A stretch of DNA of 26,086 nt from a virus: positions 1-26,086 of the IMG/VR virus record IMGVR_UViG_3300027996_000144; one strand, written 5' to 3'. Below the pieces are notes generated by a model. That model did not search any database. It worked only from the letters and a program-made list of their open reading frames with translations, and was not told where the DNA came from. Positions 21,502 to 26,086 of this stretch are shown here, piece after piece; position 1 is the first letter of the stretch, and every line of letters starts with the position of its first letter. Position numbers and translations under genes: made by a program.

Positions 21502-22860
21502 TTGGTAGATGGTAAAAAAGAAAAGTCAAACCCCAAAAAAATCCGTAAAGAATTACTCAAAGCCTACACAGACTTAAAGAAACAAAACCCTGCACAGGAG
21601 ATTATGCGGGATGGTTTTCTACGTGACGTTCCAGGCTGTACACGCCATAAAATATCCTTGGCCTTTAATAGCTTTGCCCACTTAAAAAAAGAGGGGGACG
21701 AAGCCTTTTTTAATTCCCTCCCAGTAGGCCACAGAGCCTTATTGTGTGAAAGAAAAAAAATATATGATCCGCTAACCACTTCTGAAGAGTGTATCGAAGA
21801 CCTTAGAGAGCTTCAGTTAGAGCATGACGGAAAAGAGATCACCAGAAACTTTTATCGATTAAATGGTAAATATTCTGACTCTACTTGGAATCAATTTTTT
21901 GGAACTTTCCTAGAGTTTAAGAGACAAGCTGGCCTCCAGCTAACTAGGCACCAGCATAAATTAGAAAGAGAACTAGCTAAACACGCTTCACACGATCACT
22001 ATAGAAAGTTTTTTGAAACCGAAGTAATGCCCTACCACCAAAAATATGATCAGTATAATTTGGAGAAAGAGGGAATAGCCTGTGTGGTTGTGGCCAGCGA
22101 TATGCATGACAGGTACATAGATGAGTTTAGTCTATCGATCCTAATTGATCGGTGCCGCATACTCCAGCCCGAGGTCATCTGCTTGAATGGTGATATTTTC
22201 GACCTATACGAGTTCTCAAAGTTCTCACAGGACCCTAGAAGATGTGACTTAGTTGACCGCTTTAAATTTGTTCACGAAAGAATTTTTAAGCCACTAAGAA
22301 AAGTTTGCCCAGATTCTCGGATAGACTTAATTATGGGAAATCACGAATTCCGTTTATTACGCCATCTCAGTGATCGTAGTCCCTACATGAAAGTCCTGAT
22401 GTCAGATTGGCTCGATCTACAATTCAAGGATATCTTTAAGCTCGATGAATATAGAATTAACTGGGTTTCTAAACTTGACCTCTCAGCCTGGACTAAAAAG
22501 AATGTCAATGATGAGTTGAAGAAGAACTACGAAATTTATTTTGACTGTTACGCGGTATCACATATCCGTGATCTAGGGTTCAAAATGAGTGGTACTAATG
22601 GCCACCACCATACCTTGGACATGATATCCACTTTTTTCCTTGATAGGGGGCCCTGTACATGGGTTCAGACGCCTGGAATGTGTGCAAGGGACGAAGAGTA
22701 CTTAGATGGGATGTCAAAGTGGAATACGGGCTTTGTGGAGGCCTACATAAATACGAGCACTAAGGAAGTGGTACAGTGTCCCATTTTGACGCACAAGGAT
22801 TGGTGTATGATAGACGGGAAGCTCTACAAACGGTCGGATTTATGGGATCAGGAAATTTAG
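21502..22860 (+). CDS. Metallophosphoesterase with duplicated N-terminal helical motif
   Basis: Calcineurin-like phosphoesterases hydrolyse phosphate esters or nucleic acid with two metal ions. All metal ligands are visible: D200-M-H202, GD231-I-F-D234, GN280-H281-E282 and GHHH (367-370). Residues about 36-65 (MRDGFLRDVPGCTRHKISLA and on) and 113-145 (ITRNFYRLNGKYSDSTWNQF and on) look like two copies of a small helix-turn-helix unit of the kind that accompanies homing endonucleases and phage DNA-binding proteins. A nuclease or DNA-linked phosphatase is therefore plausible. The TTG at 21502 is chosen as the start because no ATG lies near it in frame. At 452 residues it is larger than the bare catalytic domain. 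Confidence 0.82.
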   Translation: MVDGKKEKSNPKKIRKELLKAYTDLKKQNPAQEIMRDGFLRDVPGCTRHKISLAFNSFAHLKKEGDEAFFNSLPVGHRALLCERKKIYDPLTTSEECIEDLRELQLEHDGKEITRNFYRLNGKYSDSTWNQFFGTFLEFKRQAGLQLTRHQHKLERELAKHASHDHYRKFFETEVMPYHQKYDQYNLEKEGIACVVVASDMHDRYIDEFSLSILIDRCRILQPEVICLNGDIFDLYEFSKFSQDPRRCDLVDRFKFVHERIFKPLRKVCPDSRIDLIMGNHEFRLLRHLSDRSPYMKVLMSDWLDLQFKDIFKLDEYRINWVSKLDLSAWTKKNVNDELKKNYEIYFDCYAVSHIRDLGFKMSGTNGHHHTLDMISTFFLDRGPCTWVQTPGMCARDEEYLDGMSKWNTGFVEAYINTSTKEVVQCPILTHKDWCMIDGKLYKRSDLWDQEI

Positions 22861-24124: not shown

Positions 24125-24382
24125 CTACTTGTTAGCAGGGTTACCTTTTTTCGCTGGAAGTTTCTTAGCTACGGTATTATTAGCTGGAAGTTTCTTAGCT
24201 ACTTTCTTAGCTGGAGTCTTCTTAGCTACTTTCTTTTTAGCCGCTTTCTTAACGGGCTTCTTCTTGGCGACTTTTTTCTTAGCCACTTTCTTAACTGGTT
24301 TCTTCTTAGCTACTTTTTTCTTAGCTACTTTCTTCACTGGTTTCTTCGCTGTTTTCTTAACAGGTTTCTTAACTGCTGTCAT
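24125..24382 (-). CDS. Histone H1-like lysine-rich DNA-binding protein
   Basis: The 85-residue protein is built from (P/V)KK(V/T/A)AKK-type repeats, with 38 lysines (45%), alanine, proline and valine, and almost no acidic residues. This composition matches the tails of eukaryotic histone H1 and bacterial H1-like proteins such as HctB and AlgP. It should be a disordered polycation that coats and condenses DNA. The ATG at 24382 follows a strong AAGGAGG that overlaps the thymidylate-kinase stop. The coding DNA is a mosaic of short direct repeats, so its length probably varies among relatives. A virion role in DNA packing or a role in host nucleoid remodelling would both fit. Confidence 0.8.
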   Translation of the reverse strand: MTAVKKPVKKTAKKPVKKVAKKKVAKKKPVKKVAKKKVAKKKPVKKAAKKKVAKKTPAKKVAKKLPANNTVAKKLPAKKGNPANK

Positions 24383-24392
24383 GGTAACCTCC

Positions 24393-24989
24393 TTATGACA
24401 TTAATAAAATTAAATTATCTGCGTTTCGTTCTGGAGTTAAATTAAAATCGTTAACAAATCCAACCACAGGAATATCTAAATGTTTTTCTGCAAAGTGTAA
24501 GGCTTTATCAAATCCTACTTTGACCTTCTGGAAGAACTCATCTGACTCCTCATCGTAGATATCCCCTTCAGTGACATTAACTTTTCTCTTAGGTGTGGTA
24601 ACCATAACAACTACCTCAGGCAAAACCTTGATGGCCCTTTTTCCCATCATCCACCAATCAAAGGGATCAAGGTCAGCACAAACAGAGGCGTAAGCCATTC
24701 CCGAAATAAAAGACCTGTCACTAACCACCTGCACATCTCTCTCTAGGAGAGTTTTAAGATGCTCAGTGGAGATTGCCCTATTAGCCAGGTGTAAATATTC
24801 CCGCCCTTCAGGATTTAAATGATTCTTCCATTTCTCCTGCAAAGCGATCTCACGTAGGAGCTTAGTTATCTCCAGGCTACCATCAGGTTCAAAGGCGTAG
24901 TGATAACCAGATTTCTTAGCTACATTTTTAGCCAGGGTTGATTTCCCGCATCCATCTAGTCCCTCTAATGCTAAGTAGTCATATCTCAT
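24393..24989 (-). CDS. Thymidylate kinase-like deoxynucleoside monophosphate kinase
   Basis: This enzyme would phosphorylate dTMP (or another dNMP) to the diphosphate with ATP. It has a P-loop GLDGCGKST (residues 10-18), an FEPDG segment (residues 33-37) equivalent to the substrate-binding REPGG of Tmk, and the DR motif at D91-R92 (VVSDRSFISGMAYAS) that positions the base. At 198 residues it is close to the usual 205-215. The lid region is short, typical of phage members. It starts at ATG 24989, overlapping the CsrA-like gene's stop by four bases (ATGA), so it is translationally coupled. The usual phage role is raising dTTP for replication. Confidence 0.9.
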   Translation of the reverse strand: MRYDYLALEGLDGCGKSTLAKNVAKKSGYHYAFEPDGSLEITKLLREIALQEKWKNHLNPEGREYLHLANRAISTEHLKTLLERDVQVVSDRSFISGMAYASVCADLDPFDWWMMGKRAIKVLPEVVVMVTTPKRKVNVTEGDIYDEESDEFFQKVKVGFDKALHFAEKHLDIPVVGFVNDFNLTPERNADNLILLMS

Positions 24990-25165
24990 TCGTCTTCCTT
25001 TTCGTTTTGGTTCGTGGGGATACTATATTCTTCAGGAGCTTCGATACCCAGAGTAATTTTTTTACTCTTCGATCTAAGCTCTTTAATCTTAACCTTAATT
25101 CTGCCCTTCTCTCCCTCAATGTAGATCGACTGGCCTTCGGTAACTGTTAAAACTAACATACTCAT
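24986..25165 (-). CDS. csrA: CsrA-like RNA-binding protein, 59 aa
   Basis: Bacterial CsrA is a dimer that binds GGA-containing hairpins near ribosome sites to control translation and mRNA stability. Here MLVLTVTEGQSIYI aligns with the N-terminal strand MLVLTR..GE.I.I, and the invariant strand ITLGIEAPEE matches VRIGIEAPKE. The protein starts at ATG 25165, immediately after the MazG stop TAA (no gap), and ends in TGA overlapping the next ATG. Departures: the family arginine at position 6 (counted from the second Met) is valine, and the VHREE region around R44 has become SIPTNQ, so both main RNA-contacting arginines are missing. The protein ends in an acidic tail (NEKEDE). It could be a dominant-negative partner, a protein-binding decoy or an altered-specificity regulator. 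Confidence 0.85.
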   Translation of the reverse strand: MSMLVLTVTEGQSIYIEGEKGRIKVKIKELRSKSKKITLGIEAPEEYSIPTNQNEKEDE

Positions 25166-25567
25166 TTAGAAAGCCTTGTTACCATGGCGATACTCACGTT
25201 TATTATTATAACTAAGCTTAAGGTCTAAAACATTATTAAGGTTCCAGCCTTTATAAGCAAAATAATCCATAGCTCTAACAATACAGTCAACCACTTCCAC
25301 AGAAGCCCCCTCAGGTTTATACTCTCCTGTAGATGCGAATTCGAACATTTTTTCCATTGAGATATCATCGAGGGTGAAAACTTTTTTAGTTTCTTTGTGT
25401 ACAAGGTACAAGTCAGGTTTATTATTCCTAAACTCTTCCAGTGCCTCAGAAAGCTCGCTCACCATAAGCATTAAAAATGTGCCATCTTCCCTAGGTGTAT
25501 CATACCAGCCTTTAAGTTGGGCTGTGCTGTGTATTTCTAGGGCATAATCACTCGGTGTCATACTCAT
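25166..25567 (-). CDS. MazG-like nucleotide pyrophosphohydrolase
   Basis: MazG-type enzymes cleave NTPs or dNTPs to monophosphate and pyrophosphate. The 133-residue product shows the paired metal-binding motifs E38-LS-E41 (in VSELSEALEEF) and E91-VV-D94 (in VEVVDCIVRAMDYF), separated by about 50 residues in a helical fold. The ATG at 25567 was preferred over ATG at 25606 because GGAG (25574-25577) lies six bases upstream of it. It overlaps the end of the patatin-like gene by 20 bases and its TAA directly precedes the CsrA-like ATG. Phage MazG proteins are often proposed to change host alarmone or nucleotide pools; whether this enzyme prefers ppGpp or a dNTP cannot be told. Confidence 0.75.
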   Translation of the reverse strand: MSMTPSDYALEIHSTAQLKGWYDTPREDGTFLMLMVSELSEALEEFRNNKPDLYLVHKETKKVFTLDDISMEKMFEFASTGEYKPEGASVEVVDCIVRAMDYFAYKGWNLNNVLDLKLSYNNKREYRHGNKAF

Positions 25568-26086
25568 CGTCTTCTCCATTGAAACGAGAAAAGAATGTAT
25601 AGACACCCTTCTTCCCGCTATCCATTAATTTATGTTTATCTTCTAAAGTTAAATCAAAATCTAAAGCTGAGTATCCTATAGAGTCGATGTAAATAGTTCT
25701 TTCATACTCATGGTACTCTCGATATTTTCGATAGGATGAAGCCGATTTTAAAACGCGCTTACTATAATCCACTAGGCCTTTTAATTTTTTACACCTTTTG
25801 TAGTAATCCACATTGGAATACCTATCAATCTGATCCATGGGTTCAATCACCATGCCTAAGGTGTAACCATGATAAGTTTGTTTATCAAAAATTCTAATAG
25901 GGTAGTTACTTGTGATCCCCCCATCTGCATACACTCCATCTAGACCATGTTCTCGATAAGGAACTGGGGTAAAAACCCAAGGAATAGCCATCGACATTCT
26001 TAGAGCAATCCAAATAGGTAAATTTGGTGTGTGTTTCTGAGAACAAATTTCAGGTTTTCTGGTTTCAATATTAGAAACGACTACAT
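25548..26086 (-). CDS. Patatin-like phospholipase, 5' end outside window
   Basis: The frame is open to the window edge; about 179 C-terminal residues are visible. The segment NLPIWIALRMSMAIPWVFTP followed by VYADGGITSNYPI is the conserved second half of the patatin domain, and DGG carries the catalytic aspartate of the Ser-Asp dyad. The N-terminal GxSxG serine motif should lie upstream in the missing part. The ATG at 25995-25997 is internal, not the start. Patatins cleave acyl chains of membrane lipids. It heads the visible part of the leftward operon with MazG, CsrA-like and kinase genes. A role in lipid remodelling, entry or release is possible. Confidence 0.85.
   Translation of the reverse strand, partial: VVVSNIETRKPEICSQKHTPNLPIWIALRMSMAIPWVFTPVPYREHGLDGVYADGGITSNYPIRIFDKQTYHGYTLGMVIEPMDQIDRYSNVDYYKRCKKLKGLVDYSKRVLKSASSYRKYREYHEYERTIYIDSIGYSALDFDLTLEDKHKLMDSGKKGVYTFFSRFNGEDDEYDTE

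Follow-up and report, generated by a model that had tools for sequence, protein, structure and literature searches.

Phages and plasmids carry working copies of CsrA, for which a role in seizing control of host translation or in suppressing CRISPR-Cas has been proposed. The RNA pockets of CsrA are built from strands β1 and β5 of opposing monomers; R44A abolishes regulation by the protein, and full repression of glgC requires both pockets (PMC7652899). Saturation mutagenesis of C. jejuni CsrA placed R44A, E46A, R6A and L4A among the strongest losses, and the R6-E46 salt bridge was described as indispensable to both the structure and the activity of the protein (PMC6692469). In RsmA this bridge is an inter-subunit contact (PMC3791407).

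Several described proteins resemble the one reported here. Canonical CsrA and RsmA (PF02599; phage copies occur for example in Vibrio phage 1.232.O and Pseudomonas phage F116) share its small size, the MLVLT start of β1 and the GIEAP corner between β4 and β5. Plasmid RsmQ is likewise a CsrA homologue on a mobile element, and it heterodimerises with RsmA and RsmE of the host (PMC9928087). RsmN/RsmF of Pseudomonas aeruginosa is a rearranged CsrA relative with a truncated C terminus, whose R62A variant (equivalent to R44A) is still a dimer, with its RNA binding weakened more than 1,000-fold (PMC3791407). Finally, R44A subunits of CsrA have been used for one-pocket dimers (Mercante 2009), in which, as far as they are described in PMC7652899, the loss of R44 disables a pocket.

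The present protein differs from canonical CsrA/RsmA in having a 5-residue insertion before β2 and in lacking R6, R7, R31, K38, H43, R44, E46 and the C-terminal helix. RsmQ is a GGA binder with the VHRE/D site preserved; here the site is missing. RsmN/RsmF carries an extra helix of about 16 residues between β2 and β3 and keeps R8, E64 and R62; all four features are absent here, with no such helix between the two strands and a Thr at the position of R62. In comparison with the R44A subunits, as the later account presents them, it is a natural protein and has lost residues of both β1 and β5, which would affect each of the two pockets in a mixed dimer. What is new, judged from these residues, is a CsrA-family variant without the residues that grip RNA; the family itself is known.

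The locus and its CsrA-family gene

The window, meaning the whole 26,086-base virus record that was analysed, is probably a fragment. Its plus-strand genes, among them those for sheath, tube, baseplate and further structural proteins, are those of a phage with a contractile tail, and the nearest relatives of the sheath belong to large Vibrio, Rhizobium and Thermus myophages. At the right end is a run of minus-strand genes, encoding in order patatin-like, MazG-like, CsrA-like, dTMP-kinase-like and lysine-rich repeat proteins (Table 1). The initial annotation had placed a 59-residue gene in an operon with MazG and a kinase, and this is borne out by the profile matches of the two neighbours.

Table 1 Features of the window discussed in the text, with the residues of the CsrA-family gene numbered as in E. 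coli CsrA.
Feature	Position	Strand	Remarks
Metallophosphoesterase	21502-22860	plus	Weak N-terminal homing-endonuclease-associated repeat; large viral contigs encode relatives
Lysine-rich AKKxVAKK repeat protein	24125..24382	minus	Next downstream of kinase; HC2 21 bits, below cut-off of 40
dTMP-kinase-like gene	24393..24989	minus	Pfam PF02223, 5.6e-17
CsrA-family gene, 59 aa	24986..25165	minus	Lacks equivalents of R6, R7, R31, K38, R44 and E46 and the C-terminal helix; basic β2-β3
MazG-like pyrophosphatase	25166..25606	minus	PHROG 3301, 4.8e-23; directly upstream of CsrA-like gene
Patatin-like phospholipase, 3' part	25548..26084	minus	Pfam PF01734, 4.4e-10; first visible operon gene, cut by contig end

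The CsrA-like frame, read on the minus strand from 25165 to 24986 with the TGA stop included, encodes MSMLVLTVTEGQSIYIEGEKGRIKVKIKELRSKSKKITLGIEAPEEYSIPTNQNEKEDE. Its ATG is abutted by the TAA stop of the MazG-like gene, and its TGA overlaps the ATG of the kinase by 4 bases, an arrangement that supports both co-translation and the annotated frame. A frameshift hiding an RNA-binding motif was ruled out, since the other frames have no profile match and the overlap backs the frame. Scans for promoters and terminators gave no excess over shuffles. The C-terminal part of the patatin-like phospholipase had no counterpart in the phage collection. The lysine-rich protein has 85 residues with AKKxVAKKP repeats, is histone H1/HC2-like, and adjoins nucleotide-metabolism genes.

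Residues 3-49 of the window protein match the Pfam CsrA profile (PF02599) with 37.2 bits (E 2.8e-9, cut-off 27), and a profile made from 130 relatives, with the window protein left out, gives it 38 bits. The NCBIfam equivalog cut-offs are however missed by far (20.4 against 70.1 bits for TIGR00202, and 21.5 against 73 bits for NF002469). On these matches the protein is a divergent member of the CsrA fold family, and no equivalent of CsrA. Its nearest phage and bacterial matches have about 44-47% identity across the aligned core.

The fold signature (MLVLT, GIEAP) had been described as intact. This holds for the motifs themselves, but structure prediction did not back it. The AlphaFold2 monomer, run with 36 sequences after leaving out rows from annotated phage records, has a mean pLDDT of 55, compared to 81 for a canonical phage CsrA run with the identical sequence set. 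The low-confidence model contains no helix, whereas the control has one at 45-56. Either the isolated place of the protein among the aligned sequences or a genuine change of fold or stability may lie behind the low pLDDT; the fold is therefore assigned from sequence similarity.

Residues lost and kept

In E. coli numbering, the changes are R6V, R7T, R31T, K38E, H43P, R44T, E45N and E46Q. The equivalent of R6 is V8, as initially noted, and the five basic positions of the RNA surface (6, 7, 31, 38 and 44) are occupied by V, T, T, E and T. The VHREE region had been read as SIPTNQ; the loss of R44 stands, but that alignment is off by one, since an ungapped alignment from GIEAP pairs V42 with I, H43 with P, R44 with T, E45 with N and E46 with Q. 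Both partners of the inter-subunit R6-E46 salt bridge are gone (V6 and Q46). The protein ends in NQNEKEDE, with nothing like the C-terminal helix following β5. It contains just two arginines, R22 and R31 in its own numbering, so that an insertion shifting an arginine back into the RNA site, which was checked for, is ruled out: there is none beyond residue 31. The proposed loss of the canonical RNA pocket is thus well supported, and goes further than first stated, because R7T, R31T, K38E, E46Q and the missing helix are added to it. Of the residues lining the pocket, L4, T5, A36 and P37 are retained; L2 is also kept, and the change of V42 to I is conservative.

We surveyed CsrA homologues for the same substitutions. 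The set of 119 distinct members draws on 80 loci from a scan with patterns favouring HR, which are hence biased, and on 38 loci and phage records chosen with no requirement for R44. At positions 6, 7, 31, 38 and 44, the number of basic residues is between three and five in the 118 other members, and zero in the window protein. In order to remove the bias, 59 Planctomycetota genomes were searched with the Pfam profile, and the resulting 51 CsrA domains include most of the 17 matches that one genome contains. All 50 domains that aligned at position 6 have R6, and all 49 that aligned at position 44 have R44. One paralogue, L193, has a C-terminus that could not be aligned, where R44 is apparently missing, and it keeps R6. 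Across the survey and the 51 domains, the combined loss of R6 and R44 is found in the window protein only.

Some of the homologues encountered are unusual in other ways. A phage CsrA (L097) has S in place of R6 (MLILTSRVGE), with R44 and E46 intact. The genome with 17 profile matches (G073, contig 1, Planctomycetota) includes a frame, L194, that holds two partial CsrA domains. A 595-kb uncultured phage record (L014) encodes at 2001-2180 a CsrA with a basic β2 insertion like that of the window protein, and with an intact pocket.

The evidence base for the gene is one sequence on one fragment. Neither a single-protein scan of IMG/VR nor the phage collection yielded a close relative; an alignment scan returned seven relatives only, all of them distant and canonical, and plasmid collections gave weak canonical matches only and no close relative. 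The gene was not found in the relatives reached through MazG, dTMP kinase, sheath, phosphoesterase and virion protein, most of these records being fragments. A weak CsrA match in a Rhizobium phage was attributed to chance, there being no CsrA-like ORF there.

The pattern of loss was compared with that expected from decay. The window protein keeps 19 of 25 conserved structural positions under an unfavourable placement of gaps, and has lost all five of the charged contact or bridge positions (6, 7, 31, 44 and 46). MAFFT puts two mismatches in β2 (V22 and V25), both of which would be restored by a β2-β3 turn longer by two residues; these were omitted from a first Fisher test and scored as lost in a worst-case version and in the simulation, for which five real csrA genes were decayed neutrally to about 43% identity. 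The results are indicative only, being post hoc and using identity to the nearest known relatives and not to the true ancestor: the Fisher P for charged positions against core is 0.001-0.006, at least 19 structural positions are kept in 0.6% of simulations with open frames (P about 0.006), and 1 of 1,500 simulations both keeps at least 19 and loses all five charged positions. Since the core positions persist, a selective loss of the pocket would appear more likely than random decay.

Possible functions of the window protein

We propose that a CsrA captured by the phage would have retained the small β-strand core of the dimer, and lost the charged residues from both halves of the pocket for ANGGA RNA (R6 and R7 in β1, R44 and E46 in β5), together with R31, K38 and the C-terminal helix. 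The window protein very probably does not bind canonical GGA hairpins with an affinity like that of CsrA. We suggest, with modest confidence, that it would act through pairing between proteins, and most likely join freshly synthesised host CsrA in mixed dimers. Each pocket combines β1 of one subunit with β5 of the other. Since the window subunit has defects in β1 as well as in β5, a mixed dimer would be left with two damaged pockets, whereas a classical R44A subunit damages only one.

Poisoning of a putative host CsrA by mixed dimers is plausible, and we tentatively place it first among the readings. It draws on the 37.2-bit family match, the absence of all five basic contacts and the 19 of 25 core positions kept. 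There are precedents in the RsmQ heterodimers (PMC9928087) and in a helix-less CsrA core that, when linked to full-length CsrA, still assembles as a dimer (PMC5864733); the two-strand pockets (PMC7652899), the dimeric RsmN R62A (PMC3791407) and the correlation of phage CsrA with the presence of host CsrA (PMC8450108) also count for it. A more specific proposal, rather doubtful, is that of a two-pocket poison subunit, which would fold together with host CsrA, knock out the two RNA pockets simultaneously and so shut down post-transcriptional control in the host. Several observations count against mixed dimers. The missing R6-E46 bridge is itself a contact between subunits; V6 and Q46 would leave unpaired charges on the host subunit and may favour self-pairing; in Serratia, CRISPR-Cas goes up when RsmA activity is lost (PMC8450108), with no obvious benefit to a phage; L4, T5, A36 and P37 of the pocket are retained; the pLDDT is 55 against 81 for the control; and no other phage searched carries such a protein.

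The paired loss of R6 and E46 could equally mark a homodimer that pairs with itself and avoids host CsrA, as expected of a self-compatible V/Q pair. Such a homodimer would have abandoned the RNA surface and have a new ligand, another nucleic acid or a protein, bound by the basic β2-β3 region (EKGRIKVKIKELRSKSKK). The insertion before β2 fits this somewhat doubtful alternative, as does the stretch from I14 to G33, which has 9 K/R and a net charge of +6, the K/R count being the highest of the 119 members (mean 2.8). However, a comparable insertion and a net charge of +6 in this region also occur in the CsrA of the 595-kb phage record, where R6 and R44 are still in place; a basic β2-β3 thus does not require loss of the pocket. 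Continued RNA binding by the window protein, with a changed or weakened specificity, is unlikely. Recognition of GG is largely through the backbone (PMC6692469, PMC3791407), and the retained L2, L4, T5, A36 and P37, with a conservative Ile at 42, agree with such binding; but all five basic contacts are lost, one of them by charge reversal, equivalent single R44 mutants lose most of their affinity (PMC3791407, PMC7652899), and H43P puts a proline into β5.

For a decaying and functionless copy of a captured csrA speak the singleton status, with no counterpart in the relatives searched, and the low AlphaFold2 confidence; the open 59-codon frame says little in itself, since a frame of this length stays open by chance in 6.5-30.5% of neutral simulations at 35-47% identity. 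We consider this quite improbable, because the structural positions are kept far better than in simulated decay, the charged contact residues are all lost together, and the tight coupling to mazG and tmk is intact. Proteins that bind CsrA directly are known, and a decoy for them might be imagined. But FliW binds the C-terminal helix (PMC7829508), and CesT needs this helix and R31, K38, H43 and R44 (PMC5864733); the window protein has none of these, and a decoy role is rejected as extremely improbable. With the RNA contacts, the residues needed by CesT and the helix all missing, canonical RNA binding is not expected of it, and nor is a decoy role towards these two proteins.

Whether by mixed dimers, our preferred reading, or otherwise, a copy of CsrA without its grip on RNA would represent the opposite strategy to that of the working copies, or a fold reused for another ligand. 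In this single example, the phage protein may jam or redirect host CsrA instead of copying its role. It would also be a compact natural tool with which to test whether a defect inside the dimer is enough to break CsrA control.
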